Origin: Kiritimatiellota bacterium | Lineage (GTDB): Bacteria > Verrucomicrobiota > Lentisphaeria > Oligosphaerales > JAADHN01 | Length of the DNA: 32,120 nucleotides | Assembly: GCA_013151865.1 (NCBI GenBank) | Contig: JAADHN010000003.1 | Span: 1 to 32,120 of the forward strand | Reading direction: 5' to 3' | Shown: positions 943 through 30,116 of the stretch, piece by piece | Numbering within the stretch: the stretch's first letter is position 1 | How the letters are laid out: every line of letters begins with the position of its first letter | Notes under the pieces: model-generated | What the model saw: only the letters and a program-made list of their open reading frames with translations | The model's database searches: none | Told to the model about the DNA's origin: nothing | Made by a program: the position numbers and the translations under genes

Positions 943-1637
943 CCCTGTCTAACATTACATATTTATAGACGGATCGAAAATCATGGGATACCGTGAACCG
1001 GTACTCTACCGTAGCGCATTCAGTCGGGGCTGCAATTCCAGGGGACGAAAAAAGCCGGCGTGCGCGTAAGCCATGGAAGCCGAGCGGGACAGGCACGTCC
1101 GCCTTTGGCGGATCCCGGAGTCCCTGCTGTGCAGGGTCGCTCGGGGACTCGCTCCGTCGCCCTGCGCCCCCGCCCGGCGGGGAAGAGAGACGGAGCGCCC
1201 GAAGCGGCGCAGTGAATTCGCGTGGCGTAAGAACGCCGACTTCCGCGGCTCACGCCCCTTTTCGAACGACTCATTCTGCAATATTCTGCGCAGAGCCCAC
1301 CAGCGTTCACGCGTCTCAGTCTATTTGCCGGGCTCGGGGCGGTTTCTTTCCCTTGATCGCAGTGTTTCAGGAAGCGAGGCGGAACGGTTTGAGCCGCACT
1401 GCCTCTCGCCCTTCTCTCGGCCGGGGACCGCCGGAACCACGTGCCGCCCTGCATTGCGGGGCGTGCCGCGGGCTGGTATGTTTGGGGCTTTGGCCCTGTC
1501 GACGCCCCATGTGGGGGAGACGGGGCGGTTGCGACGCTTGCCGGCGAATCGGTTTGAGACGACAGTCGTCCCGTATCGAAGCAAACAGCGGCGAGGTCGA
1601 CTCTAAACGGACACCGGAACAACGGGGAGCCGGTCTG
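943..1637. other. Gene-free spacer with GC-rich stem-loops
   Basis: About 700 bases without a credible gene. The plus strand is open in the frame of the downstream DUF4838 gene for some 215 codons, but the translation is Arg/Pro/Gly-rich with no family resemblance, and the opposite strand is equally open, as expected for GC-rich non-coding DNA. The first 40 bases are AT-rich (around 951-980) and may hold the promoter of the transposase on the minus strand. Two hairpins at 1118-1150 and 1150-1197 are listed separately. Confidence 0.6.
1118..1197. repeat. Two adjoining GC-rich hairpins
   Basis: The first hairpin pairs 1118-1124 (gagtccc) with 1144-1150 (gggactc), with an alternative inner stem 1122-1126/1132-1136. 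The second pairs 1150-1158 (cgctccgtc) with 1189-1197 (gacggagcg), a perfect 9-bp match, and encloses a further stem 1168-1172/1178-1182. Tandem hairpins close to a RAYT gene are reminiscent of a BIME, although their sequence does not match the hairpin at 400-466. They could equally be ordinary secondary structure in high-GC DNA. Confidence 0.4.
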
Positions 1638-4600
1638 ATGTTGCAGTGCAGTTCCATTCAGGCGCTGGGTGTGATTGCGGCGGCCTTGTCGGGCTATCCG
1701 ACGGTTGAGGGCGCGGCATTCGCGTCGCCGGTATTTCAGTTGGACTTCGACAAGGGGGTCGAGGCCCGGGACCGGTCGGGCAATATCGTGCGCCCCACTA
1801 CGGTCAAGAACGCCAGGTTTGCGCCGGGATTGCGGGGCAAGGCCCTGGTTGCCGACTCCGCCCTGCTCGTGTACCCGGCCTCGGTACTACCCCGGGACAG
1901 CGGAACGGTGCTGGCGGTGGTGTCGCCGCTGAAGAACGGCACAAGCCGGAAAGCTTGGATGGCATTCTGCGGTCCGGCGGAAAAGTGGGGAATTCGCGGC
2001 GTCCCCCGGCTCTGGCGCTGGAACGGGCAACCCCGATTCGACATGGACGGCGGCCCGATGGCCGTGTACGGAGGCGGGACGGACGGTTTCGACTGGAAAG
2101 TGGGCAAGTGGCATGTATTCGCCGGGACTTGGGACCGGAAGACGGGACGTTTGGCCTTGTACCTGGACGGGCGTCTGATAGGTTCGAAAGCTGTCGCCCC
2201 TTGGAAACCGGAAGCGACCCCGGGCTTCGCCGTAGGCTGGGCGCGAAACCTCGACAATCGAGCTACCGACTGGGCCCAGTCCCTGATCGACTCCGTCACC
2301 GTGTACGACCGGGCGCTGCCGATGCTTGCCGTGGCTTTGGAGACTCGCCGGCTGGGCGTGTATCCGCATCTGCCGCCCTCGGTGCCGGCCCACCCGGGAT
2401 GGTCCAACACCCTGGCCCCGAACGGGCCGAAGGGGCCCGAGCTGGTCTTGGCCGAGAACGGCAAACCCCGGTACACGGTCCTGCTTCCGGCGCAACCGAC
2501 CAGCATGGAAGTCAAGGCGGCCTTGGATCTGACCGAATGGTTGTACGCCATGACCGGTGCGAAGTTCGCCATCGCGACCGAGCCCGATGCACCCGACGGC
2601 CCGGTGATCGGCATCGGCCGGACGAAACGGTGCGCAGGCGCCGAGCCGCCCGGTTGGGATCGGGATCTCGGGCGCGAGGGGATCGGCATCGGCGTTTCGG
2701 GGCGAGATCTGTTTCTCTGGGGCGGTTCGGGTCGCGGAATCATCAATGCGGTGTACGCCTTACTCGAAGAAGACTTGGGATGCCGGTGGTATTCCCGGGG
2801 TACGGCGACGATCCCGAAACACGCGACTCTCCGCTTCCGCCCGGTCCCGAGGACGTTCGCGCCGATCCTCGAAATCCGCGACCCGTTCTACTGGGACGCG
2901 TTCGAGGCGGACTGGTCTTTGCGCAACCGGACCAATGCCCCCAGCGCCGCGGTCCCGGACGAGTTCGGCGGTCGCGTGCACTACTCCGGCGGGTTTTTCG
3001 TGCACACGTTCAATCGACTCGTACCGCCCAAGAAGTATTTCAAAGCACACCCAGAATACTTCAGTGAAATCGGCGGAAAACGTGTTCCCCGCCAACTCTG
3101 CCTCACCAATCCCGATGTTTTGCGGATTGCCGTCGCGAAAGTTCGAGACGTGCTGCGCACCGATCCCGCCGAACTCATCAGTGTCTCGCCAAACGACGGC
3201 AAAGGGTATTGCGAATGCGCCAAGTGCAGGGCCATCGATGACGCGGAAGGCACGCACGCCGGCACGCTCCTGCGATTCGTCAATGCGATCGCGGATTCGG
3301 TCCGGACCGAGTTTCCGGATGTGAAGATTTCCACGTTGGCCTACCTCGGCACCGTGCAGCCCCCCAAGACCGTCCGTCCCCGGGACAACGTCGTGATCCG
3401 TCTTTGCACCGACCGCCACGCCTGGGGGCACGAATTCCAGTTTGTGACCGAGACCGACGAATTCAGCGGCGCCATGAAAGCCTGGAGCGAGATCGGAGCG
3501 ACCATCAACATCTGGGACTACACCACGAACTTCAGTCATTACAGTCTGCCGTTCCCGAACATGCCGCTGGTCACGCAGAATGTGCGGTGGATGATTGCGC
3601 ACAACGCACGGGGCATCATGCTGCAGGGCGCGTATCAGAGTCCCGGTTCGGCACGCGGGCCGTTGCGTTGTTGGGTGTGGGCGAAACAACTTTGGGCCCC
3701 ATCTTTGAACACGCGCGACCTGATCCGCGACTTCACCTACGGTTTCTATGGTGAAGCCGCAGACCCCATGCAACAATACAACGAACTCTTATGGCGGCTG
3801 TGGGAACGGGAGTATATGGGGGCCCTGCGCCAAGTGGGCGGCATCCGTTTTCCGCCGGATTCAAAGTTCTTCACCGTCGACTTCGCTCGCAAAGCCACCG
3901 CCTTATTCGCCGCGGCCGAAAGCCTCGCGAAGCATCCGGAAGTGAAGCGACGCGTGCGCCTGGCCAAGTTTTCCCTTCTCTACCTGAAACTGGCGCGTGG
4001 TCCGGATTTCTTGCCGGGCGAGGATTATGCGGCGCTCTGCGACGAGTTTGCGGCCATTGCCGAGGAACAGCACATCACTCATTTGTGGGAAGGCGGCGGA
4101 GGTCGCAACGGACAGGTGGCCCGGAAACTCGCGTACTGGCGGGGGTTGATCAAAGCGCGTAAGATGAAAACAGAGGTCTTGCGCATCGGCCCTGTGTGCA
4201 TGTTTCAGCCCGATCCGAACAACGTCGGCGAAAAGGAGGGGTGGTACCGGGCGGACTTCGCGGACCTGGGCTGGGCCAGAATCCGGTGCGGCGAACCCGG
4301 CGGTTGGAACAAGCAGGGCTTTCCCAATCTCACCGGGGCCGGATGGTATCGGATCCGATTCGATGTGCCGAAAGACTTCGGCAAGGACCGGATGGTCCGT
4401 GTCTTTGTCGGCGCCGCGGACGAAGATGCCGTGTTCTATTTGAACGGCGAGAAGGTGTTCGAGCACACCTGTGCGTCGACGGGCCTGACGCCGGAGCAGA
4501 TTTGGGACAGGCCGTTTCTGTTTGACCCGGGACCACTGCTCGAACGAGGCGTGGAGAACCTGCTGGCAGTGCGCGTCTACAATCGTTTCGCCATGGGCGG

Positions 4601-4691
4601 CATTTGGAAACCCGTGCTCCTGGTCGCCGGCAAGGAACTCCCAAAGCCCGAATTGATTCTGGAAGCCGTCCGGCCGCGAGAAAAGAAATAG
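1638..4691 (+). CDS. Secreted LamG / GH67-like / DUF4838 protein
   Basis: A 1017-residue exported protein, probably acting on uronate- or amino-sugar-containing glycans outside the cytoplasm; the exact reaction is unknown. The start is ATG 1638, preceded by GGGGAG at a good distance and opening a signal peptide (residues 1-30, ending around AAFA). Next come a LamG/concanavalin-like sandwich (about 33-235), a segment resembling the N-terminal domain of alpha-glucuronidases (about 268-400, ELVLAENGKPRYTVLLP... and IGIGRT), and the DUF4838 domain (about 410-690) with its hallmark SVSPNDGKGYCECAKC at 515-530. A helical region follows, then a C-terminal galactose-binding-like sandwich (about 890-1017) of the type found at the ends of GH2-like enzymes. 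The amidohydrolase gene begins 115 bases downstream on the same strand. DUF4838 is related to the GH67/GH20 barrel class; hydrolase activity is inferred, not shown. Confidence 0.85.
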   Translation: MLQCSSIQALGVIAAALSGYPTVEGAAFASPVFQLDFDKGVEARDRSGNIVRPTTVKNARFAPGLRGKALVADSALLVYPASVLPRDSGTVLAVVSPLKNGTSRKAWMAFCGPAEKWGIRGVPRLWRWNGQPRFDMDGGPMAVYGGGTDGFDWKVGKWHVFAGTWDRKTGRLALYLDGRLIGSKAVAPWKPEATPGFAVGWARNLDNRATDWAQSLIDSVTVYDRALPMLAVALETRRLGVYPHLPPSVPAHPGWSNTLAPNGPKGPELVLAENGKPRYTVLLPAQPTSMEVKAALDLTEWLYAMTGAKFAIATEPDAPDGPVIGIGRTKRCAGAEPPGWDRDLGREGIGIGVSGRDLFLWGGSGRGIINAVYALLEEDLGCRWYSRGTATIPKHATLRFRPVPRTFAPILEIRDPFYWDAFEADWSLRNRTNAPSAAVPDEFGGRVHYSGGFFVHTFNRLVPPKKYFKAHPEYFSEIGGKRVPRQLCLTNPDVLRIAVAKVRDVLRTDPAELISVSPNDGKGYCECAKCRAIDDAEGTHAGTLLRFVNAIADSVRTEFPDVKISTLAYLGTVQPPKTVRPRDNVVIRLCTDRHAWGHEFQFVTETDEFSGAMKAWSEIGATINIWDYTTNFSHYSLPFPNMPLVTQNVRWMIAHNARGIMLQGAYQSPGSARGPLRCWVWAKQLWAPSLNTRDLIRDFTYGFYGEAADPMQQYNELLWRLWEREYMGALRQVGGIRFPPDSKFFTVDFARKATALFAAAESLAKHPEVKRRVRLAKFSLLYLKLARGPDFLPGEDYAALCDEFAAIAEEQHITHLWEGGGGRNGQVARKLAYWRGLIKARKMKTEVLRIGPVCMFQPDPNNVGEKEGWYRADFADLGWARIRCGEPGGWNKQGFPNLTGAGWYRIRFDVPKDFGKDRMVRVFVGAADEDAVFYLNGEKVFEHTCASTGLTPEQIWDRPFLFDPGPLLERGVENLLAVRVYNRFAMGGIWKPVLLVAGKELPKPELILEAVRPREKK

Positions 4692-15113: not shown

Positions 15114-16676
15114 TCAGCCGCGGCCGGGCGGCAAGGCGGCCCTCCAACCGGCGCGCAGCATACCGCTGAGTCGCGCCGTCAGTTCCCGGTTTTCCGGACG
15201 ATACGCCAAATTCACGTTCTCATTCGGATCGACCTGATGATCGTAGAGTTCCGCGCCGGCCGGCTTTTCGCCGCACTTGGCCCATTCGGTGTACCGGTAC
15301 CGGTCGGTTCGGATCGAGTAGCCCATGTATCCACCGCGGGGATACTGACTGAACGCCGCCTTCTTCCAGGGGCGGTCCGGAGTGTCCATGAGCGGGGCGA
15401 AGCTGAAGCCTTCGAGGCCTTCGGGTACCGGCAGGTCGCACAGTTCGCACAGTGCCGGATAGATGTCGACGAATTCGACCAGTGCATCGGTCTTGCGGCC
15501 CGGGGCCCGCTGACCCGGGCTCGAGCAGATCAGGGGCGCCCGGGCAGCAACCTCGAAATTGGTGTGCTTGCACCACAGTCCGTGTTCGCCGAGCTGCCAG
15601 CCATGGTCCCCCCATACCACGATCACGGTGTTGCGGCGCAGGCCGAGCCGGTCGAGTTCGCGGACCACGCGGCCGATCTGTGCGTCCACGTAACTGGTTG
15701 CGGCATAATACCCGCGGATTAATTCCAGGGCTTTTTCGTCGGAGATCTTGCCCTTCGCCGGAATGTCGCTGTAGGCACGCAGTTCGCCGGAATTGTGCAG
15801 CGCCATGGGCGGACAATCCTTGGGCGGAAAGGGGTTGTCGGCAAGCGTGATCCGGTCTTTGGGATAGAGACCGTAATAGCGCTTCGGGGCCACGAACGGA
15901 AGATGGGGTTTGAGAAACCCCACGGCCAGAAAAAACCGCCGGTCCCCGACGTTGCGGAGGACCGATATGGCCTGGTTGGCGGTCTTGCCGTCCGGCAACG
16001 CATCATCCGGTACGTCCGGATCTTCCCACGACGGTCCCCGCACCCGGTATCGCGGGCGACTCACCTTGAGGACCGCGCCGGTCTTCGGATCGCGCGCCAA
16101 TACCTTGGTGGGCTGGAGCTTGCCCTCGGCCCTGAGGCGGGCGCGTTGGGCGCGCATGGCCTCGATGGTTTCGGGTTTGAGGTAGCCGGGCCCTTTCGGG
16201 CGCCACCAGGGGACACTCCAGGAGAGCGGGTCGTTCAAGCCGCCATGGTAAATCTTGCTGAAACCGGCCGTGTAGTAGCCCCGCTGCTTGAAATACTGCG
16301 GCAGCGTGACCACATCGGGCAGGTAATTCCGGAAATGCGTCTGAAGGTCGTAGATCCGTGTTGTGTCCGGCCGGCGCCCCGTAAGGAGAGACGTCCGGGA
16401 GGGGCTGCAGACAGCCTGTTGGCAGTAAGCGCGGTTGAACAACGTACCGGAAGCGGCCAGAGCATCAAGACTCGGCGTCACCATTTTCTCGACGCCGTAG
16501 CAGCGTGTTTGCGGGCGCAAATCGTCCACCGCGATAAACAGAACGTTGTATCTTCCGGATGGGGCCTTACTCATGGGCAGTGCGGCCCGCAGTCCCGGTG
16601 CGGCCGCAGCCACCACGGACCACCCCAATCCGCCCAGACTCGATGCCAAGAACTCTCTGCGAGACTCGTTCGCCAT
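15114..16676 (-). CDS. Exported sulfatase, iduronate-2-sulfatase-like
   Basis: A 520-residue type I sulfatase that hydrolyses sulfate esters, probably on polysaccharides outside the cytoplasm. ATG 16676, with GGAGG ten bases upstream, starts a Tat signal peptide (RREFLASSLGGLG followed by an Ala-rich hydrophobic stretch). AVDDLRPQ (Asp51, Asp52) supplies metal ligands; CSPSR (Cys90) is the C-x-P-S-R site whose cysteine must be converted to formylglycine. The context CQQAVCSPSRTSLLTGRRPD and the later THFR, GFLKPHLPF and WGDHGWQLGEHGLWCKHTNF match the iduronate-2-sulfatase-like subgroup. The C-terminal part (LYDHQVDPNENVNLA) is complete. Longer in-frame starts up to 16787 give only Arg-rich sequence. 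No formylglycine-generating enzyme is encoded in the window. It follows the UbiB-like gene on the same strand by 110 bases. Confidence 0.93.
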   Translation of the reverse strand: MANESRREFLASSLGGLGWSVVAAAAPGLRAALPMSKAPSGRYNVLFIAVDDLRPQTRCYGVEKMVTPSLDALAASGTLFNRAYCQQAVCSPSRTSLLTGRRPDTTRIYDLQTHFRNYLPDVVTLPQYFKQRGYYTAGFSKIYHGGLNDPLSWSVPWWRPKGPGYLKPETIEAMRAQRARLRAEGKLQPTKVLARDPKTGAVLKVSRPRYRVRGPSWEDPDVPDDALPDGKTANQAISVLRNVGDRRFFLAVGFLKPHLPFVAPKRYYGLYPKDRITLADNPFPPKDCPPMALHNSGELRAYSDIPAKGKISDEKALELIRGYYAATSYVDAQIGRVVRELDRLGLRRNTVIVVWGDHGWQLGEHGLWCKHTNFEVAARAPLICSSPGQRAPGRKTDALVEFVDIYPALCELCDLPVPEGLEGFSFAPLMDTPDRPWKKAAFSQYPRGGYMGYSIRTDRYRYTEWAKCGEKPAGAELYDHQVDPNENVNLAYRPENRELTARLSGMLRAGWRAALPPGRG

Positions 16677-16753
16677 TTGCGAAAAACCTCCGGGGCGTGC
16701 ATTCGTCCATGGCCGGCGTCCGTCCGGGATTCTCGGTCGGAACTCACGTGCCG

Positions 16754-16769
16754 CGCGCCGGTCGGCGCG
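16754..16769 (-). terminator. Hairpin after the UbiB-like gene
   Basis: cgcgcc-ggtc-ggcgcg (16754-16769) is a perfect 6-bp stem with a tetraloop, about 17 bases beyond the stop codon of the UbiB-like gene and before the sulfatase start. It lacks a T-tract on the minus strand, so termination would be weak or factor-assisted. Confidence 0.35.
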
Positions 16770-16786
16770 ACGGGAAGGCACCGGCA

Positions 16787-18484
16787 TTACAACTTACCAT
16801 GTTTTAATATGGAATACAGCAACGAGAACCCCATAAGGCCGGAAACCAGGAACCCCGCCACCCCGAGCAAAGGAATCCCGTGCCATTTCGGCGGAATATC
16901 GCTCAATACCATGATCGAAGATCCGACGACGAGGGCGGCGAGCACGATGGCGAAAACCATTCGGTTGCTGATTTGATCGTGGGTGTGAATCATGTTTTCG
17001 AGGCCGCGGTGCTCGAACTTCACCCGGACTTCCCCGCGCTTGAAGAGCCGAAGGACTTCGGCCACGTCCGACGGCAGGTCCCGAATCAGAGCTTGTAATT
17101 CGAGCGCGCTGTAGAAAAACTCGGAGGCCAGGCGCCGCGCTCCCATCCGTTGCCGCAGCAGCTTTTTGGCCAGAGGCGCCATGTGCTGAATTACGTCGAA
17201 TGCAGGCGACAACCGCCGTCCGACTCCCTCGATCGTGGTAAGGGCCTTGGTCAGGATGAAAAATTGCGGCGGCATGCGAATGTCGTGTACGATGAGCATT
17301 CGCGTCAGCTCGTTCAGAACTTCACCGATGCGGATGTCCTCGAGCGGGCGATAGAGATGCTGCTCGATGAAATCTGCAGCGTCGGCCTCGATCACTTCGA
17401 CCCGTTCGTATCGGCTGTAACCTGAGAGCCGGAATATGGCCGAAGTGATCTGGCGTTCGTCGCGGTTGACCAGTCCGAGCACCAGATTGCTGAGTTGTTC
17501 CCGATACCGTCGGGAAAGGACCCCCATCATGCCGTAATCGAGGAAGCAGATCACGTGGTTTGCCTGCACGAGAATATTGCCGGGATGCGGGTCCGCGTGA
17601 AAAAAGCCGTGGGTGAAAACCTGTTCGAACATCAGCTCGACCCCGTGTTGGGCCACCGTCTCCGGATCGAGCCCGGCCGCTCTCAGGGCGTCGATTTCCG
17701 AAACCTTGATTCCCTCCACGTATTCCATGGTCAAAACGCACTCGGTCGTCAGGTCGCGCCGGATGTGCGGTACGTGAATACGTGCGTCGCCTCGAAAACA
17801 GCGGTCGAACCGTTCCACATGAGCCGCCTCTGACAGGAAATCCAGCTCCCGCCGGAGCACTCCCCCGAAGTGTTGCACGATGCGAACCGGCTCGAAGACC
17901 TCGGCCCCATCGACCAATCGTTCCGTCATTCCGGCCAACTGCTGGATGATCTCGAGGTCCGTACGCACCGTGCTCTCGATGCCGGGCCGGCGGACCTTGA
18001 CCACGACGCGTTCCCCCTCCAACGTCACCGCCTCGTGGACCTGGGCCACCGAGGCCGACGCCAACGGCGGTTCGGAGAAGGTCCGGAAAAGCTCGCCGAT
18101 CGGACGCCCCAGTTCCCGCTCAACGATGCGACGGGCCTCGGCGCCGGGAAACGGGGCGACCGTATCCTGCAATCTTTCGAGTTCGACGATCAAGGCGTCG
18201 GGAAGCAGGTCGCGGCGCGTGCTGAGGAACTGCCCGAGCTTGACGAACGTAGGACCTAGTTCCTCCAACGCCAGTCGAATCCGTTCGGCCCGGGTGGGAA
18301 GGGCCGGCCCCTCCTCTACACCGGCTTGCATCGCACGTCGGTGTCGAAACGGCAAGTGCCGACGCAGCCCGAGCGTGGCCGCGAGGTCGCCAAACCCGTG
18401 TTTCAGCAGGACCATCGCAATTTCACGGTACCGCTGAACGTGCCGGTATGTCCGAGCCAATGCGGTAAAACGGTTGACGACCAT
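16787..18484 (-). CDS. ABC1/AarF/UbiB-family atypical kinase, membrane-anchored
   Basis: A 565-residue protein of the UbiB family of atypical kinase/ATPases, which support quinone biosynthesis or lipid handling at the membrane. ATG 18484 has GAGGA upstream; the open frame before it is non-coding. Signature features are the KxGQ motif FVKLGQFLSTR (Lys82-Gln85), the Ala-rich loop ASASVAQVH (142-151) replacing a normal P-loop, the VVKVRRPG lysine (Lys163), the catalytic HADPHPGN (296-303) and LDYGMMG, the DFG equivalent (315-321). The C-terminus has two hydrophobic segments separated by a short polar turn (about 505-560), the usual UbiB membrane hairpin. It is transcribed divergently from folB. 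The precise quinone pathway cannot be told from this window. Confidence 0.93.
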   Translation of the reverse strand: MVVNRFTALARTYRHVQRYREIAMVLLKHGFGDLAATLGLRRHLPFRHRRAMQAGVEEGPALPTRAERIRLALEELGPTFVKLGQFLSTRRDLLPDALIVELERLQDTVAPFPGAEARRIVERELGRPIGELFRTFSEPPLASASVAQVHEAVTLEGERVVVKVRRPGIESTVRTDLEIIQQLAGMTERLVDGAEVFEPVRIVQHFGGVLRRELDFLSEAAHVERFDRCFRGDARIHVPHIRRDLTTECVLTMEYVEGIKVSEIDALRAAGLDPETVAQHGVELMFEQVFTHGFFHADPHPGNILVQANHVICFLDYGMMGVLSRRYREQLSNLVLGLVNRDERQITSAIFRLSGYSRYERVEVIEADAADFIEQHLYRPLEDIRIGEVLNELTRMLIVHDIRMPPQFFILTKALTTIEGVGRRLSPAFDVIQHMAPLAKKLLRQRMGARRLASEFFYSALELQALIRDLPSDVAEVLRLFKRGEVRVKFEHRGLENMIHTHDQISNRMVFAIVLAALVVGSSIMVLSDIPPKWHGIPLLGVAGFLVSGLMGFSLLYSILKHGKL

Positions 18485-20712: not shown

Positions 20713-23700
20713 CTACTCGGACGCCTTCTCCAGCCTGAGCAAGACGAAGGCGCCCGCCGGCAGATCGATCGCCAGACCTCGCCGCAATTGCCCCCCGGTC
20801 ACGGTCCTGGACGTCCGTCGGATCAGGTCCCCCAGGACAACACGATCCGCGTCGTGAAAACCGAAGATCCCCGGATCGCATCGCAGTGTCGCCGAGACCG
20901 TCCCTCCCGACGGACCGCCGGCGCCGTCCACGGCGAGAAGTTTTCGATCCGGATAAGCAAACACCCGCACCCCGGTCGGACCGACAACAAGTCGCTCGGC
21001 GTCCTGCTCCCGGTGGGCCGCCCACAGCAGCGAGCGTTCCAGCAGTCCGGATTGCAGCGGAACACAGGCGTACAAGGTTCGGCCGCGGCCGAAACGGCGG
21101 AGGACGAGTCCCGGCCATTCGCGCTGATTGTTGTCGCGCCAAACCGCTTCCGGCACGGCCTCCGATGTGGTCGTCCGGACCCGAACCACGTCGTTCCGTA
21201 TCGGTTGCAAAGCTTGTGAATCGAGGGTCTGTACGAGCCAATGTCGCCGGCCCTCAGACGCGCTCAGGCAGGCGTCTTCGGGGACGGCGCCCCATGTGCC
21301 GAAAACCGGCTCGACGCCCAAAAGGGGACTCAGCGCCCATTTCTTCCCCAGTGCGGAGGGCGCTTGCGCAGCGACCAAACCTCCCCCGTCTTTCACAAAC
21401 CGCTCCAGGGCCTGTGCGAGTGTTCCGTCCGCCCACCACGCCCCACCGCTCCAGGATGTATTCGGAAGGCCGTACAGGTAGACCACGTTCGTCCCGGCGG
21501 GGACCCCCCGGGCACTGACTTCCCGAAAAGACGCAAACCGAACCTGCACCGGCAGCGTCGTGAACGGACGCAGGGCCGTGGTCCCCCACGGACGCCAGGC
21601 ATAGTTCGCGCCCCAGGAATTCAAGATCGTCACGGTCAGGTCGTGCCGGTACGGACGAGCGTCACCGAGGGTTGTGGCGATAAGGCGAAATTCGTCACTG
21701 ATGTTCGTGAGGGTTTCGATCATATCCGCCCGAATCGCGGCGACCGGTGAAAACGCCACGTTGTCGAAAACCATCCAGTACAAACCACGGACACCCGGGC
21801 GGCGCAGAAACGCCGGACGGGCGTCCCGCCACCTTCGTCGAAACCGCCCGGGAGCGACGGGATCCGCCCCGCTCCGGGCGGACAGCCAATCGACCCGCAT
21901 TCGGCGCATGGTTTTGCCCGGAAAATCCGTTAAGGCGCGCAGAGTGACGGGATCTCCGGCCGGTTTGTCGAGTTCGTCCACGAGTTCGGCGCTCCCCCCA
22001 TAGGGTTCCATGCCGACCTGACAGTCGCCCCAATAAAGCCAGGAACGCATTCCGGCTTGGCGCACCACGGCGGCGTTGGCGGCGATGAACGGCTTGAGTC
22101 GGTCCCGGATCCAACGCATCCAGGCCAGGTACTGAGTGTCGGGGACCGCCTCGATAGCCGACGGCAATCGGACCAGCCATTGCGGATCGAAGCGAATGCC
22201 GGTTTCCGCCTCGAACCGGGCCACTTGGTATTTCCCGGCGCCCAGTGTGTACGATTCCCATTCCCACCGGGCGTGCTCGTTCGGCCCGGGGTAGCCGTAG
22301 CCGATGTCGTCGAACCAATACGTGTCCAGAAGCCCGTGCAACGGGCGGAGTGTTTCCTGGAGGTGACGCACCGCGCGGCGTTGGCTCCCGGGAGCGAGCG
22401 GATCCAGAAGCCCCTTGGCTCGAAACGTGTAAAAAACTCGGTAGAGGCGCCCGGGCTCCGCTTTTCGAACCACCACTGCCGGACGTGCGGGGTCGAGAGA
22501 CCAACTGGTCGGCGGAATGATGCGGCCGTGATCGTCCACGACTTTCCAAGTGCGTGCGGCACGGTCCCGCTCCAGACCATATGTAGCCCCGCCCCAGCCG
22601 GGCAGGCGGAATTCGATGCGAACCCGAGATCCGGCCGCACGGACCCAGGTCGACACCCAATAACCGCGTTGCCGGTTTTCCGGATGGTCTCTCAGCCAAG
22701 CCCCGTCGTGAATGGGTAGCCCCTGCAACCACACGGTTCGATATCCGGCGTCTTTCCAAATCCGCAGACGTTCGGGATCGGCCGCGCCGGAGGCAATCAA
22801 TTCGTTGGCGCCCAGACGGCGGGCCCATGGAAACGCACCTTCCGGGTCGTGATGCCAACTCATGGAGATGCGCACCGTCGGCGGCAAAGCTCGCGAGCGA
22901 GCCAAACGATGCAGGGCCGCCGCGTACTCAGCCGAGCCGTTCGTCAACCGTAACGCCGCATTTCGCGCCCCGCTCCTCAAGGCGTCGGCGGCGTCCAGGT
23001 CCCGGGCGCCCAGGGCGGCCCGGAGTGCGGACAGGTAGGCACGAGCCACGTCTCGAGCCGTCGCCAACTCGGGGGCAGTGCTCCGGTCGACGGCGTTCGC
23101 AACCTGCCGGACCGCCCGGGTGCAACGGAAAAACCGGCGCCCGGCGGCCTCGACGCTTTGCCGCGCTGTGCCGATCATGCGTCCGTCCGCACCCAAAAAA
23201 TCGAGCGTGGCCAGACACACCCCCGCCGGCAACACATCAACCGGAACCAAGTCGCCCGCGGCGGCCTGCCGAGCGAATTCTTTCTTGAAAACCGTGCGGT
23301 CCCCTTGCCTGATAGTGATCCGCAATCCCGTCACGCTGGACGGCAACGCTTGCACCGGCACGCCCAGACGCGCCGCCTCGCCCTTCAGCAAGAACTGCGG
23401 CGCCAGCAGCGGGCGGAACGAACGCACCCGCCGGGAAACCCTGATTTCGTCCACATCCCCGCGGAGGAAGCCCGTCCAACCATCGTGACTGCCCACCCAC
23501 AGCGCCGGGCTGCTTTTGGCATAGTCACCCTCGGCCGGATGTCGGGCTTCCCCGACCTGACGGCCGTTCACAAAGACGCGAACCGTCCGGTCGGGTGCAT
23601 GTGTCAGGGCCACGTGCGACCACATCCGCGGTGCGAGCCGCAATCCGTCGAAGTCGATGTAGCGGATAGGGAAAGACGACGACCGGTAACCGAAACGCCG

Positions 23701-24081
23701 GCGATTGCCGATGAACAAGTAAAACCGGAGGGCGCACGACCAAAGGGCGCCGCCCTTCGTGTCGGCCGGGCGTACCCACATCTCAATGGTGAATGCCTCG
23801 TCTTGCCGGAGAAGAAGTTTGTCGTTCCCGGTTAGTTTGAGGCTTTGTTTGCCCGCGGCAAAGCGGAACCCGCGGCCGAAACGCCCGGGACAACTCGCGG
23901 CCCCCCGGACCTTCGTCAGCCGTGGCGCCGCCGAGCCTTCTGCGAAATCGTCGTCGCAGTGAGCGAGAACCAGGGTGTCCGGGTCTGAACGATACGGCAA
24001 GAACCACACGGACGGCGTGGGCGCTGCCCAGGCGGGGACCGAAACGGCGAAAAACCAGCAGAGGACCCAGCGTCTGTACAT
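20713..24081 (-). CDS. Secreted LamG protein with divergent GH112 (lacto-N-biose phosphorylase-like) core
   Basis: A 1122-residue protein. ATG 24081 has GGAGG eight bases upstream and opens a signal peptide (VLCWFFAVSVPAWAA, 6-20). A LamG/concanavalin domain spans about 35-220 (AFTIEMWVRP, WSHVALTHAP, VDEIRVSRRV). From about 400 the sequence follows the GH112 order: MSWHHDPEGAFPWARRLGAN, ARFEAETGIRFDPQWLV (621-637), YLAWMRWIRDRLKPF, and YWGDCQVGMEPYGG (683-696), the counterpart of the GH112 G-D-x-x-x-G-x-E-P motif, then LRALTDFPG. The Rossmann-like middle domain has ISDEFRLIATTLGD, LNSWGANYAW and TSWSGGAWW (875-883), and a small C-terminal sandwich follows. GH112 enzymes phosphorolyse beta-1,3-galactosyl-HexNAc in the cytoplasm; an exported, LamG-bearing version is unusual, and the FTTFFYQF-type segment of true phosphorylases is replaced by TYWFDDIGYGYP (587-598). 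Phosphorylase activity is therefore doubtful. Confidence 0.75.
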   Translation of the reverse strand: MYRRWVLCWFFAVSVPAWAAPTPSVWFLPYRSDPDTLVLAHCDDDFAEGSAAPRLTKVRGAASCPGRFGRGFRFAAGKQSLKLTGNDKLLLRQDEAFTIEMWVRPADTKGGALWSCALRFYLFIGNRRRFGYRSSSFPIRYIDFDGLRLAPRMWSHVALTHAPDRTVRVFVNGRQVGEARHPAEGDYAKSSPALWVGSHDGWTGFLRGDVDEIRVSRRVRSFRPLLAPQFLLKGEAARLGVPVQALPSSVTGLRITIRQGDRTVFKKEFARQAAAGDLVPVDVLPAGVCLATLDFLGADGRMIGTARQSVEAAGRRFFRCTRAVRQVANAVDRSTAPELATARDVARAYLSALRAALGARDLDAADALRSGARNAALRLTNGSAEYAAALHRLARSRALPPTVRISMSWHHDPEGAFPWARRLGANELIASGAADPERLRIWKDAGYRTVWLQGLPIHDGAWLRDHPENRQRGYWVSTWVRAAGSRVRIEFRLPGWGGATYGLERDRAARTWKVVDDHGRIIPPTSWSLDPARPAVVVRKAEPGRLYRVFYTFRAKGLLDPLAPGSQRRAVRHLQETLRPLHGLLDTYWFDDIGYGYPGPNEHARWEWESYTLGAGKYQVARFEAETGIRFDPQWLVRLPSAIEAVPDTQYLAWMRWIRDRLKPFIAANAAVVRQAGMRSWLYWGDCQVGMEPYGGSAELVDELDKPAGDPVTLRALTDFPGKTMRRMRVDWLSARSGADPVAPGRFRRRWRDARPAFLRRPGVRGLYWMVFDNVAFSPVAAIRADMIETLTNISDEFRLIATTLGDARPYRHDLTVTILNSWGANYAWRPWGTTALRPFTTLPVQVRFASFREVSARGVPAGTNVVYLYGLPNTSWSGGAWWADGTLAQALERFVKDGGGLVAAQAPSALGKKWALSPLLGVEPVFGTWGAVPEDACLSASEGRRHWLVQTLDSQALQPIRNDVVRVRTTTSEAVPEAVWRDNNQREWPGLVLRRFGRGRTLYACVPLQSGLLERSLLWAAHREQDAERLVVGPTGVRVFAYPDRKLLAVDGAGGPSGGTVSATLRCDPGIFGFHDADRVVLGDLIRRTSRTVTGGQLRRGLAIDLPAGAFVLLRLEKASE

Positions 24082-24557
24082 GACCGGAGCCTCCGGATGC
24101 TTCAGTGTTTCGGACCGTTTTTTACGAAAGTTGCACGCCACAGGGCTCGGATGCCCGGCGATCCGCCCCCGGCACCTCGGTCGCCAAGGCGCCTGGGGGC
24201 CGCGACTCCTGTCCGGACAACATACATTGCCCCGCAGAAATGTCCGGGGAATGCGCCGGAAACCGGGGCGCCGCCGGCGCTCGAACGTCTCGTTCGGGGC
24301 ATTGCCTGCAAGCGTTGTCAGCTTATAATAACCCCTAGGCAAAGAATATGTGCGGGCCGACTTCGAGCATGGTTTCACCATTCTTCCCGGCGATGCCGGC
24401 TTCGACGACAGTCCCACATGGCGGGGGGGCCGTTCCGGGGCGGACTGGCGCCGGGCCGAAGCAGGCGGCAGGTCCAGTCGAGTCCAGACCGGCTGTTATG
24501 CGCAGATCCCCGGCCCGGTCGCAGGCAGTGAAAATGAACCAGACAAAAGGCAGCAGC
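24082..24557. other. Divergent intergenic region
   Basis: About 475 bases between two diverging genes (the GH112-like gene leftward, a sulfatase gene rightward). It should hold promoters for both. A rightward promoter candidate is listed separately; none was convincing for the leftward gene. The in-frame extensions of both flanking genes into this region are Arg/Pro-rich and unlikely to be translated. Confidence 0.55.
24302..24329 (+). promoter_or_regulatory. Sigma-70-like promoter candidate for the sulfatase gene
   Basis: TTGCCT (24302-24307), a four-of-six match to the -35 consensus, is separated by 16 bases from a perfect TATAAT (24324-24329). It sits in an AT-rich patch that stands out from the GC-rich surroundings and would give a 5' leader of about 220 bases for the sulfatase. 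Confidence 0.5.
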
Positions 24558-25964
24558 ATGCAGAAAAGCGAGCGCCCCAACATCCTCTTCTTCTTTGCGG
24601 ACGATCAGCGGTTCAACACGATCCACGCCCTCGGAAACGATGAAATCCGAACGCCGACGCTCGACAGGCTGTGCGCCCGAGGCGCCACATTCACGCACGC
24701 CCACATTCCGGGGGGCACTTGCGGTGCAGTCTGTATGCCCTCTCGCGCCATGCTGCACACCGGTCGCACGCTTTTTCATCTCCAACACTCGGGCCAAGAC
24801 GTGCCTGCCGACCACACTCTGCTCGGCGAACACTTCCAAAACCAGGGGTACCGCACGTTCGGTACGGGAAAATGGCACAACGGACCGGGCGCTTATGCCC
24901 GGAGTTTCACGGACGGCGGCGAGATCTTCTTCGGTGGAATGGACGATCACTGGAATGTGCCGGCTTTCGATTTCGACCCCACCGGAAAGTACCAGGGACG
25001 GTTGCCGATCGTCAAAGACTGGGCCAGATCGAATGCGGTGACCCGCAGACATGGCGATCACGTTACGGCGGGGAAACACTCCAGCGAACTGTTCTGCGAC
25101 GCCGCGATCGACTTCCTCGAACGGTACGAGGGTGTCCAGCCGTTCTTCATGTATGTGGCGTTCATGGCGCCGCACGATCCGCGCACGATGCCGGAAAAAT
25201 TCCGCCGGATGTACGACCCGGAGCAGATTCAGTTGCCGCCTAACTTCATGGGCGGACATCCGTTCGATAACGGCGATCTGAAGATCCGCGACGAACTGCT
25301 GGCGGACTTTCCGCGGGACCCCGACGAAACCCGACGGCACATCGCCGAATACTACGCCATGATCACCCATCTGGATGCCGAGATGGGCCGCGTCCTGGCC
25401 GTGCTCGAAGCCAAAGGACTGGCGGACAACACGATCCTTGTGTTTGCCGGCGACAATGGCCTGGCGTTGGGACAACACGGGCTCATGGGAAAGCAGAGCA
25501 ATTACGACCACTCGGTTCGGGTTCCCCTAATCCTGGCCGGACCCGGCATTCCAAAAAACACGAAAAGCGATGCCTTCGTTTACCTCCTGGACATCTTTCC
25601 CACGCTTTGCGACTTGACCGGCGCACCCACGCCCCACTCGGTGGAAGGCAAGACGCTGGTCCCGGCCTTCCGGACACCGGGCGACAAGGTTCGCGACACC
25701 TTGTTTTTTGCGTACAAGGGACTGCACCGTTCGGTCCGCGACCGCCGGTACAAACTCATCGAGTACGCCGTCCGCGGCAAACGCACCACCCAATTGTTCG
25801 ATTTGCAAACCGACCCGTGGGAACTGCACAACCTGGCGGCCGACCCCAACCACACCGGAAAAGTCGCCGAACTGCGCGCGGAGTTGCAGCGCTGGCGCAA
25901 CGAGTGGGACGACCTCGACACCGAGTGGGGCCGCGCTTTCCAGGAAGTCTACTCCGCGGTGTAG
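24558..25964 (+). CDS. Sulfatase, type I, no evident signal peptide
   Basis: A 468-residue sulfatase. ATG 24558 is preceded by AAAAGG at nine bases; ATG 24534 in the same frame is an alternative. It begins almost directly with the catalytic fold: NILFFFADDQRFNT (Asp15, Asp16 as metal ligands), then CGAVCMPSR (Cys59 as formylglycine precursor in C-x-P-S-R), GTGKWHNG, FMAPHDPRTMP, FAGDNGLALGQHGLMGKQSNYDHSVRVPL and a C-terminal LFDLQTDPWELHNLA. The choline-/arylsulfatase-like pattern suggests a sugar sulfate ester as substrate. Neither start yields a hydrophobic signal, unlike the sulfatase at 15114-16676, so it may act in the cytoplasm on imported sulfated oligosaccharides, or use an unrecognised export route. 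It precedes the methyltransferase-propeller gene by 195 bases, same strand. Confidence 0.93.
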   Translation: MQKSERPNILFFFADDQRFNTIHALGNDEIRTPTLDRLCARGATFTHAHIPGGTCGAVCMPSRAMLHTGRTLFHLQHSGQDVPADHTLLGEHFQNQGYRTFGTGKWHNGPGAYARSFTDGGEIFFGGMDDHWNVPAFDFDPTGKYQGRLPIVKDWARSNAVTRRHGDHVTAGKHSSELFCDAAIDFLERYEGVQPFFMYVAFMAPHDPRTMPEKFRRMYDPEQIQLPPNFMGGHPFDNGDLKIRDELLADFPRDPDETRRHIAEYYAMITHLDAEMGRVLAVLEAKGLADNTILVFAGDNGLALGQHGLMGKQSNYDHSVRVPLILAGPGIPKNTKSDAFVYLLDIFPTLCDLTGAPTPHSVEGKTLVPAFRTPGDKVRDTLFFAYKGLHRSVRDRRYKLIEYAVRGKRTTQLFDLQTDPWELHNLAADPNHTGKVAELRAELQRWRNEWDDLDTEWGRAFQEVYSAV

Positions 25965-26159
25965 TGCCTTGGGGCGCGAGGGCAACCGGCGAGAAAGCCT
26001 GGCAAGGTGCTGAATGCGGACCGTGAGTTGTGCACTGCAGGCAAAGTTTCCGGCAGGCGCGGGTTCAATATGTCAACCGCGGCCACGTCGTCCACGTGCA
26101 CATCCGAGAATGATTCCATTGCGGTTTTACCCGGGCAAAGGCGCCCAAGGAGCCCATTG

Positions 26160-29100
26160 ATGCGCGTTTTGTGCATTCATTGCCGGCCGAATGACCTTTC
26201 ATGCCGTGCGCCCGCGCCTGCTGCCCGGCCGGCCTTTCTCCTCGTCTCTCTGGCCCTAATGGCGGCCGGCCACGCTCCCGCGACGCTCGCCGTGCCGGGC
26301 GCGGTCAACCGGCAGGCGCAGCGCATTCTCGACGCGGCCGGTGTGCAGGGCGGCATCGTCGTTCATGTCGGCTGTCGCGATGGGCGACTTACCGCCGCCC
26401 TGCACGCGAGCGAAAGTTTCATCGTTCAAGGCCTCGACCGCAACCCTCGAAACGTCGACACGGCTCGTGCCCGCATCCGCTCGACCGGCCTCTACGGCAG
26501 AGTGTCCGCGGAATTGTGGGCCGGCGGCAAACTGCCGTACATCGACAACCTCGTGAACCTGTTGGTGGTGAGCGCCGGCGAGACGTTGGCGAAAACCGAA
26601 ATACAGCGGGTGCTCTGTCCCCGCGGCGTGGCGGTCTTCCTGGACGGACCGAAAAACACGGTGGCCTCACAGTGGCGCAAGCCCTGGCCCCAGGGAATGG
26701 ATGAGTGGACGCACTACCTCCATGACTCGACCAACAACGCGGTCGCCCACGACACGTTCATCGCGCCACTCGGTCGGTATCAGTGGGTGGGCAGCACGCG
26801 TTACTCTCGGCATCACGACCATATGTCGAGCATCAGTGCGGCGGTCTCGGCGAAAGGCCGGGTGTTTTACATCTTCGACGCCGCGCCGCGAGCATCCATT
26901 CTGATTCCACCCCAATGGCGGCTCATTGCCCGGGACGCGTTCAACGGCGTGGTATTGTGGGAGCGACCGATCAGCCGATGGCATAGTCACTTGTGGCCGC
27001 TCAAGAGCGGGCCGCAGCTCCTGACGCGCCGGTTGGTCGCGGTAGGCGACCGCGTCTACGTCACGCTCGGCATCGACTCGACGCTGACCGCGCTCGACGC
27101 GGCAACGGGAAAGACCGTCCGCACGTACGAGGGAACCAAGGCGACGGAGGAAATCCTGTACAACGCCGGCGTACTTTTCCTCAGCGTGGCTCGCCGGGGT
27201 CAACCGCTCCGCAGCGATCCGAATCGGTCGTACGCCAATATGCGGGAGATCAGGCAAGACGTTACCAACCCGCTCTGGACACAAGCCCCACGCACCATCA
27301 TGGCCGTGGACGCCGCATCGGGCAACGTGCTCTGGCAAAGGGAATCGATGCTCGTTTCCATGTCCCTGACGGCGGACACCCGGAACGTTCTGTTCCATGA
27401 CGGCGAGAAAATCGTGTGCCTGAATCGACGCACCGGCGGGCAGCGTTGGTCTTCTCGACCGTTGCCAAAACTCGAAAAAATGCGAAGCTCCTGTGGCGTG
27501 ACGCTCGTGAGCTATGGCGACGTGATCTTGTACAGCGGTCGGGTCGCGGCGGAAAAGTACAAGCTGCGTTCATCGACAACCATGTTCGCGCTGTCGGCCA
27601 CAGACGGAAGAAGTCTCTGGCAGGCGGAACATCCGCCGTGCGGACACCAGGGCACTCCGGACGACATCCTCGTCGCAGGTGGATTGGTTTGGTCCGGCGC
27701 CGTCGCGAGTCCCCGCGACTCGGGCGTGATGATCGGCCGGGATTTGCATACCGGCGAAGTGAAAAGCCGATTCCTGCCCGACGTGCAAACCCACTGGTTC
27801 CACCACCGCTGTTATCGCGCCAAGGCCACTGATCGGTATTTGCTCTTCTCCCGCACGGGGATCGAATTCATCGACTACGCGAAGAAACACTGGATCTGCC
27901 ATCACTGGGTCCGCGGAGCATGTCTGTATGGTGTATTGCCGGCCAACGGCTTGATCTACACGCCGCAACATCCGTGCGCGTGTTACCTGGAAGCCAAACT
28001 GTTCGGGTTCGCCGCACTCGCACCGGCGGCGCCGGACAAGCTGCCGCGGCGCCGCATTCCCGATGCGGAGCGCCTGCTCCGCGGCACGGCCTACGACGAG
28101 GCCATCCTCCCGTTTGAACCTCAAACCGCAGACTGGCCGACGTACCGCGGCGATGCGCAACGGAGCGGCTTCGCCCGCACCGCAGTCCGGGCCATGGGGC
28201 TCAGACAAGCCTGGACCACCGCGCTGGGCGGCAAGTTGAGCAGCTTGACCGCTGCGGACGGCAAGGTCTTCGTCGCGTCGGTCGATGCGCATACGCTGCA
28301 CGCGCTCGATGCAACCACCGGCGCACCGGTATGGAGTTTCGTCGCCGGTGGACGTGTGGATTCGCCGCCCACCATCTGGCGCGGCCGCGTGCTGTTCGGC
28401 TGCGCGGACGGTCGCATCTACTGCCTGATGGCGTCGGACGGACGGCTCGTCTGGCGCTATAGGGCCGCCCCGGAAAACCTGCGGATGGGCGGCGGCGAGC
28501 AAATCGAGTCCGTGTGGCCGGTGCACGGCAGCGTGCTGGTGCAGAACGACGTACTCTACTGCGTCGCAGGGCGTTCGATGTTCCTCGACGGCGGTCTGCG
28601 CTTCCTGCGACTCGACCCGAAGACCGGACGCAAACTCTCCGAAACCATCCTCGACGACCGCGACCCGAAAACGAAAAAAAACCTGCAAAGCGATGTGAAA
28701 GGTCTGAACATGCCGGTGGCCTTGCCCGACATTTTGTCGAGCGACGGGAGCTACGTGTACATGCGTTCACTGCCCTTCACCCTCGACGGTCGTCGCAAAT
28801 TCGTAGCCTACGTCCCAGTCTCCCAACGCGAGGGGGACGACCTACACCTGTTCAGCCCCACGGGCTTCCTCGACGGCACCTTGTGGCACCGCACATACTG
28901 GATTTACGGTCGCGCGTTCTCTTCGGGCGCCAGCGGTTACTACTTGGCCGGACGGGTGGAACCCTCCGGACGCCTGCTCGTGTTCGACGAAAGGCGAGTT
29001 TACGGTTACGGCCGGCTCTGGCGATACTACCGTTGGACGACGCCGCTGGAGTTCCACCTCTTCGCGGCGCCCAAACGCCCCCGGGTCGTGCCCGCCGGCA

Positions 29101-30116
29101 CGGAACGTCGGCCGATCCGGAAAAACGGCAAGGTCGTCGGTCGACGTACGCGGTTCGTCACCCGGTTCGCGCATGACTGGTCGGACCAGCTCCCCGTGCA
29201 AGTTTGCGCCATGGTGTTGGCCGAAAACGCGCTGTTCGCGGCCGGACCGCCGGACGAGGTCGATGAAGAACGGGCCGGGCGGCGGCTGAACGATCCGGAG
29301 ACCATCCGGAAGCTTGCAGACCAGGAAGCCGCTTTCGCGGCGCGGCGCGGCGGACTGCTTGTCGCGGTGCGACCGAACGACGGAAAACTGCTGGCTTCCT
29401 ACCGGCTCCGGTCCCCGCCCCTGTTCGACGGCATGATCGCCGCCAACGGACGGCTCTACCTGTCCACCCGCGACGGCAAAGTGCTGTGCCTGTCGACCAA
29501 GGCCGGACAGCCTCTCCCGGTCGCTCTCGGCGCAAAAGTGACGGCCCGTCCGCCCGATCCCGTCCTGAAACCGTCCGCGCCCAAGGTCGGCCTGCCATCG
29601 GCCGCGACCGAGTTCGCCGTGGTCGACGGCGCCTGGGTCTGGCGGACCAAGCACGGGTATCGCGTCTGCACCGACGCTCAGAGCAAGACCGGCATCGTGC
29701 TCAGGAAACTCCCGACCCCCCTCACCGGAAAAGTGACGTTTCGCACCCGGCTCCGGGCCAATGCCGACACCACCATCCGGCGCGGCCGCAGCAACGGCTA
29801 TCTCGTTTTCGGCGCGTCGCCCGAGACTGGCGCACTCGTGACCTGCGGAGTCATGGTCAAGGCGAAAAAGGCGCTCATCGCCGAAGGCGGGGGAAGGGGC
29901 GCCAACACGGCTTCGAAACGCCTCTTCGCCGACTTCGCCAAGGAGCAGGAGATCATCGTCACCGTGGACCCGACTTCCAACTCCGTGACCCTATCCGTCG
30001 GGGGGCAGACGGTGTCGCTGAAACTGAAGACCGGTCTCAAGCGCATCGGGTACGTCGGTTACTGCGTGCAGAGCGCCATCAGCGATTTCGGTCCGATCCG
30101 GATCGGTAGGGAGTGA
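26160..30116 (+). CDS. Exported methyltransferase-like / PQQ-type beta-propeller fusion
   Basis: A 1318-residue protein. ATG 26160 has a perfect AAGGAG eight bases upstream; the open frame back to 26007 is rejected. A hydrophobic segment (AFLLVSLALMAAGHAPATLA, about 25-44) acts as signal or anchor. Residues 52-165 resemble a class I SAM methyltransferase Rossmann fold: VVHVGCRDGRLTAAL (67-81), acidic loop QGLDRNP, LPYIDNLVNLLVV and a VLCPRGVAVFLDG strand. PQQ/BamB-type propeller repeats follow, for example GDRVYVTLGIDSTLTALDAA, GKVFVASVDAHTLHALDA and GRVLFGCADGRIYCLMASDG, in two blocks joined by TADWPTYRGDAQRSGF, a typical propeller opening. A C-terminal concanavalin-like sandwich spans about 1185-1318. 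Function unknown; it may bind or sense something outside the membrane. Alcohol dehydrogenase activity is not supported. Confidence 0.85.
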   Translation: MRVLCIHCRPNDLSCRAPAPAARPAFLLVSLALMAAGHAPATLAVPGAVNRQAQRILDAAGVQGGIVVHVGCRDGRLTAALHASESFIVQGLDRNPRNVDTARARIRSTGLYGRVSAELWAGGKLPYIDNLVNLLVVSAGETLAKTEIQRVLCPRGVAVFLDGPKNTVASQWRKPWPQGMDEWTHYLHDSTNNAVAHDTFIAPLGRYQWVGSTRYSRHHDHMSSISAAVSAKGRVFYIFDAAPRASILIPPQWRLIARDAFNGVVLWERPISRWHSHLWPLKSGPQLLTRRLVAVGDRVYVTLGIDSTLTALDAATGKTVRTYEGTKATEEILYNAGVLFLSVARRGQPLRSDPNRSYANMREIRQDVTNPLWTQAPRTIMAVDAASGNVLWQRESMLVSMSLTADTRNVLFHDGEKIVCLNRRTGGQRWSSRPLPKLEKMRSSCGVTLVSYGDVILYSGRVAAEKYKLRSSTTMFALSATDGRSLWQAEHPPCGHQGTPDDILVAGGLVWSGAVASPRDSGVMIGRDLHTGEVKSRFLPDVQTHWFHHRCYRAKATDRYLLFSRTGIEFIDYAKKHWICHHWVRGACLYGVLPANGLIYTPQHPCACYLEAKLFGFAALAPAAPDKLPRRRIPDAERLLRGTAYDEAILPFEPQTADWPTYRGDAQRSGFARTAVRAMGLRQAWTTALGGKLSSLTAADGKVFVASVDAHTLHALDATTGAPVWSFVAGGRVDSPPTIWRGRVLFGCADGRIYCLMASDGRLVWRYRAAPENLRMGGGEQIESVWPVHGSVLVQNDVLYCVAGRSMFLDGGLRFLRLDPKTGRKLSETILDDRDPKTKKNLQSDVKGLNMPVALPDILSSDGSYVYMRSLPFTLDGRRKFVAYVPVSQREGDDLHLFSPTGFLDGTLWHRTYWIYGRAFSSGASGYYLAGRVEPSGRLLVFDERRVYGYGRLWRYYRWTTPLEFHLFAAPKRPRVVPAGTERRPIRKNGKVVGRRTRFVTRFAHDWSDQLPVQVCAMVLAENALFAAGPPDEVDEERAGRRLNDPETIRKLADQEAAFAARRGGLLVAVRPNDGKLLASYRLRSPPLFDGMIAANGRLYLSTRDGKVLCLSTKAGQPLPVALGAKVTARPPDPVLKPSAPKVGLPSAATEFAVVDGAWVWRTKHGYRVCTDAQSKTGIVLRKLPTPLTGKVTFRTRLRANADTTIRRGRSNGYLVFGASPETGALVTCGVMVKAKKALIAEGGGRGANTASKRLFADFAKEQEIIVTVDPTSNSVTLSVGGQTVSLKLKTGLKRIGYVGYCVQSAISDFGPIRIGRE

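Follow-up and report, generated by a model that had tools for sequence, protein, structure and literature searches.

The window, i.e. the whole stretch of 32,120 nucleotides analysed here, encodes on its minus strand (20713–24081) an exported LamG + GH112-like protein of 1122 aa, as read from the open reading frame. Judging by its sequence, this protein may be an exported inverting glycosidase of the GH112 fold, with D686 as the general acid and D591 or D592 as the base, a reading to which we give a probability of roughly 50%. It combines the GH112 fold, domains and acid with a score under the phosphorylase equivalog cut-off, the loss of R32, R210 and the N166 segment, and a signal sequence, and should properly be named a GH112-fold protein and not a lacto-N-biose phosphorylase.

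Domain architecture and predicted fold

The ATG at 24081 was chosen as the start codon, as a GGAGG ribosome-binding site is found 8 nt upstream (24090–24094, minus strand). All parts of the gene mentioned below lie on this same minus strand. Residues 1–20 (MYRRWVLCWFFAVSVPAWAA; 24022–24081) form a signal peptide of a typical Sec type, judged by eye and by hydropathy, with the cleavage read between MYRRWVLCWFFAVSVPAWA and A. Relatives with complete N-termini likewise bear a signal sequence, judged by composition. Downstream, a LamG domain (Laminin_G_3; residues 89–221; 23419–23817) is detected with Pfam at E 1.2e-15, the PF13385 match reaching 58.4 bits against a cut-off of 27.6, followed by a helical linker (residues 314–394; 22900–23142; DSSP of the predicted model). 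The remainder consists of a TIM barrel (Lact_bio_phlase; residues 404–812; 21646–22872; Pfam, DSSP and Foldseek), an LBP_M central domain (residues 818–1025; 21007–21630; Pfam, E 2e-17) and a C-terminal beta domain (residues 1026–1122; 20716–21006; DSSP of the predicted model). Within the barrel, the best stretch of the Lact_bio_phlase match covers residues 606–812 (Pfam, E 2.3e-18), and the TIGR02336 match extends to residue 1051.

The initial annotation had described a signal peptide, a LamG domain and a full GH112-like order of segments, and had proposed an HMM search against GH112. This layout is borne out by Pfam and by the fold match, with all the quoted segments being present, and the search found both GH112 Pfam domains above their cut-offs (E 2e-18 and 2e-17). 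PF09508 and PF17385 score 66.3 and 64 bits, respectively, against cut-offs of 26.6 and 25.2. In a phmmer search against the PDB, the GLNBP structures (3wfz/2zus; E 1e-19) were the only significant match. In contrast, the window protein scores 152.8 with TIGR02336, below the cut-off of 560.3, whereas canonical controls of the phylum reach 750 and 963. In the source genome (6.2 Mb, 97% complete), the window gene is the only Lact_bio_phlase gene that was found.

An AlphaFold2 model, built from nine relatives (mean pLDDT 74, pTM 0.70), contains the complete GLNBP fold, i.e. TIM barrel, LBP_M and C-terminal domain. Foldseek against the PDB places GLNBP chains on top, with E values of 3e-37 to 3e-33 and a target TM of 0.72–0.74 over about 800 columns. 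The GLNBP of B. longum (PDB 2ZUS/3WFZ; TIGR02336), which has the same Pfam domains, is matched over nearly its whole length (best match E 3e-37, target TM 0.73), so the structural likeness to GH112 expected by the initial annotation is present. GH42 enzymes such as beta-galactosidase come next, but with a best E value of about 1e-15, a target TM of only about 0.5 and 10–13% identity, and the GH42 Pfam family PF02449 was not matched in the window protein in a search up to E 5. The LamG domain drew Foldseek matches to botulinum receptor-binding domains, which were set aside because they reflect no more than a common jelly-roll lectin fold.

In the model, the barrel strands are formed by residues 404–408, 427–431, 448–452, 587–590, 679–683, 703–707, 725–730 and 764–769. 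D591-D592 are located just after strand 4, D686 after strand 5 and R729 at the end of strand 7, while pLDDT is below 50 at residues 597–601, 603–610 and 685–697. The aspartate pair is modelled on a strand next to that of D686 and might for this reason be situated on the acid side of the site and not where phosphate is held.

Active-site residues and relatives

The 121 positions that are invariant in seven canonical enzymes were compared with seven aligned members of the clade of the window protein. All seven members retain GLNBP D313 (in the window protein D686, in the motif YWGD; 22024–22026), E319 (E692), R344 (R715) and R358 (R729 at the end of strand 7; 21895–21897, by alignment), and six of the seven retain D331. 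D313, whose position was found by counting along phmmer alignments and which is invariant in every group, is what we take to be the proton donor of GLNBP, making D686 the proposed general acid. The clade lacks R32, N166-H167 and R210, as well as the whole invariant canonical segment M164-N166-H167-T169-N170-W172 ('MYNHLTN'). Of the canonical invariant arginines R32, R210, R344 and R358, only the latter two are therefore present in the window protein. A different residue is fixed in the clade at 16 canonical-invariant positions, with T212 to Asp being the only carboxylate gain in the table count. GLNBP Y362 is replaced by Trp in the window protein.

The change is found where barrel strand 4 ends: canonical Arg210-Phe-Thr-Thr/Ser becomes Trp-x-Asp-Asp. 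W589 (22315–22317) occupies the Arg210 position, being Trp in all relatives covering the site and Arg in canonical enzymes, and D591-D592 (22306–22311), the proposed general base and its neighbour, occupy those of T212-T213. The initial annotation had seen an FTT-type segment replaced by TYWFDDIGYGYP, with two adjacent aspartates. This replacement was confirmed by pairwise BLAST using L059 as a bridge (DTYWFDD to DIYRPTS to canonical VVRFTS), and both aspartates are invariant in every relative covering them (ten distinct proteins, three phyla), which is far more than chance would produce. An hhalign comparison of the two clades without intermediates introduced a 6-residue gap in strand 4, and the L059 bridge was preferred. 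Besides the Asp pair, W589, W608-E609, Y611, D686, E692, D705-K706, R726-R727 and R729 are invariant in the clade. R727 is a further arginine at a position where canonical enzymes have E356, and in total five basic residues are invariant between positions 706 and 729 (K706, R715, R726, R727 and R729).

Eight loci were found among 84,980 species genomes, and profile searches then added members from Armatimonadota. The clade of the window protein (support 100/99) comprises ten distinct proteins, drawn from Lentisphaerota, Planctomycetota and Armatimonadota; it falls outside the clade of the canonical GH112 enzymes (support 100/100). LamG is present in six of the nine A3 members, the remaining three being cut at contig starts. 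An orthologue sharing 49% identity over residues 23–1117 is encoded by Lentisphaerae SI037_bin151 (G388, the same record as L060), a genome of the same order as that of the window. No relative was found in the viral contigs searched, and the plasmids searched gave one distant match at 22.6% identity. Two loci of the same class, L092 and L093, are divergent, with YHHMDGCFHY and LIRILLSCRY as strand-4 residues, and have long branches and an unsure place in the tree.

Six other exported GH112-like proteins (L032–L036 and L059) share with the window type their signal sequences, the loss of R32 and a Trp at the positions of D260 and Y362. Unlike the window type, they keep R210 in five of the six cases and have a non-acidic residue at T212, and no fused LamG was found in the five in which it was sought. 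These R210-keeping exported proteins may be intermediates, although the two types do not form one clade in the tree. The export that the initial annotation called paradoxical is itself supported by the signal sequences, but the paradox needs qualifying, since several exported lineages of the fold exist. At least four GH112-like paralogues, exported and divergent (L032–L035), are encoded in genome G291 (3.4 Mb), and three of them keep Arg210. At two G291 loci, a separate gene with two LamG domains (L033:4347–6104 and L035:4326–5915) immediately precedes an exported GH112-like gene that lacks LamG, and this split counterpart of the fusion in the window type is hinting at a functional link. As the exported groups are not one clade and three rows of the tree have long branches, the tree gives no order of evolutionary events. 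It is also unrooted and gives no direction to the change, which the initial annotation had proposed to be evolution from a phosphorylase scaffold.

Candidate reaction and genomic neighbourhood

As an exported inverting glycosidase, the protein would be tethered by LamG to a glycan outside the cytoplasm, and the sugar would enter the TIM barrel. There, D686 (GLNBP D313) would protonate the glycosidic oxygen, while D591, with D592 adjacent, would activate a water where phosphorylases hold phosphate beneath the anomeric carbon, leading to inversion and a free sugar. Of the two aspartates, D591 would be the likelier base, since its position alternates with that of Arg210 along the strand and should be on the same face. 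Lacto-N-biose and galacto-N-biose are unlikely substrates, as the loss of the segment with canonical N166 would disfavour N-acetylhexosamine disaccharides.

A working analogy is provided by FjGH65A (a GH65 alpha-1,2-glucosidase) and the GH130 beta-mannosidases, which combine a phosphorylase scaffold and a kept acid with a carboxylate at the phosphate site (PMC8626586). In FjGH65A, the phosphate site was lost and a general base gained there, and in GH130 hydrolases a pair of Glu is found where phosphate would be bound (PMC8626586). However, their folds are unrelated to GH112, and they have been assayed, whereas the window protein is known from its sequence. For GH3, a carboxylate base beside the anomeric centre disfavours phosphate, and the same review lists residues that bind phosphate and a lack of signal peptides as features marking phosphorylases (PMC8950772). 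In GLNBP, the catalytic acid is near the GH42 acid/base, and phosphate binds close to where GH42 has its nucleophile (PMC8106489). Of the 'secreted hydrolase or lectin' suggested by the initial annotation, the hydrolase part is favoured: the protein retains the acid, lacks R32 and R210 and has new carboxylates where strand 4 ends, and precedents exist in GH65 and GH130. Against it, R344 and R358 are kept and R727 is gained, so an anion may still bind, and the protein may conceivably be a phosphorylase acting outside the cell or take an anionic substrate.

A retaining glycosidase, with one Asp of the strand-4 pair as nucleophile and D686 as acid/base, is doubtful. Its candidate carboxylates are modelled where the adjacent strands 4 and 5 end, an order that is also found in GH13-type enzymes, in which the nucleophile Asp ends strand 4. 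In addition, GH42, the next-best fold match, is a retaining family (PMC8106489). However, the scaffold has an inverting acid, as in GLNBP, and conversion through gain of a base, as in GH65 and GH130, keeps inversion.

That the protein is still a phosphorylase, extracytoplasmic and with a phosphate site rebuilt from R715, R726, R727, R729 and K706, we consider unlikely. The kept R344 and R358, the five invariant basic residues at 706–729 and the R210 kept by other exported relatives would agree with it, but canonical GH112 enzymes are cytoplasmic, whereas the window protein has a signal sequence by composition, has lost R32 and R210 and has gained two carboxylates. GalT was not found in the source genome. 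This was dropped as an argument against an enzyme forming Gal1P, since eight of the eight genomes of the phylum with a canonical GH112 also lack the family. These genomes (G156, G103, G099, G140, G367, G308, G285 and G076) have no match to PF01087 (GalT) and must therefore deal in another way with the Gal1P that their GH112 would be expected to form.

Two SGSH-type sulfatases are encoded in the window, at 15114–16787 (minus strand) and, adjoining the gene, at 24348–25964 (plus strand). With the E356 to Arg change fixed in the clade, they would fit a lyase, or other non-hydrolytic chemistry, on an anionic (sulfated or uronic) sugar whose charge is bound by R344, R358 and R727. Since sulfatases are common in such genomes and no neighbour common to the relatives was found, this chemistry is quite unlikely, though an anionic sugar as substrate could overlap with the hydrolase reading. 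Equally improbable is a protein that only binds glycans or serves as a scaffold, without catalysis. The LamG fusion and the strong divergence from characterised enzymes speak for it, but the acid and the surrounding D/E/R/W residues are invariant despite 38–48% overall identity; the same invariance of acid, charged and aromatic residues at about 40% identity makes the lectin of the initial annotation less supported.

A second fusion of LamG to a catalytic-looking domain is present at 993–4691 (plus strand), with DUF4838 at E 9.7e-89. The window further holds a beta-helix protein and an MGH1-like hydrolase, and the contig beyond it encodes GH42- and GH20b-containing proteins. This neighbourhood fits glycan foraging and fixes no substrate. 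Across the relatives, no conserved neighbours were found, the contexts being generic glycan-degradation genes, and L061 has different neighbours (FAD oxidoreductase, DUF2961 and GHL6). At 26007–30116 (plus strand), a PQQ/BamB-type beta-propeller protein has a weak N-terminal methyltransferase-like stretch (E 4.7e-4, below the cut-off), which would be unusual if the protein is exported. In genome G000, 36 stretches match GH42 (PF02449), many of them weakly, which suggests that GH-A-like proteins have expanded greatly there.

Significance for the GH112 fold

The characterised GH112 enzymes that one review lists are all phosphorylases (PMC8950772), and our literature search for an exported or hydrolytic GH112 found no report among the papers it covered. 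At somewhat under even odds, the clade would be the first in the GH112 fold to consist of hydrolases, which would add an inverting family to GH65 and GH130, with the R210-keeping exported proteins as an intermediate step. If true, GH112 would be one more of the few families showing both phosphate-using and water-using sugar cleavage, with living candidate intermediates, and phosphorolysis and hydrolysis would be exchanged by swapping phosphate-site residues for carboxylates, which is testable residue by residue. The automatic annotation 'lacto-N-biose phosphorylase' would then be wrong for the proteins of the clade, which would represent a new class of enzymes that degrade glycans outside the cell, from phyla that have been little studied.
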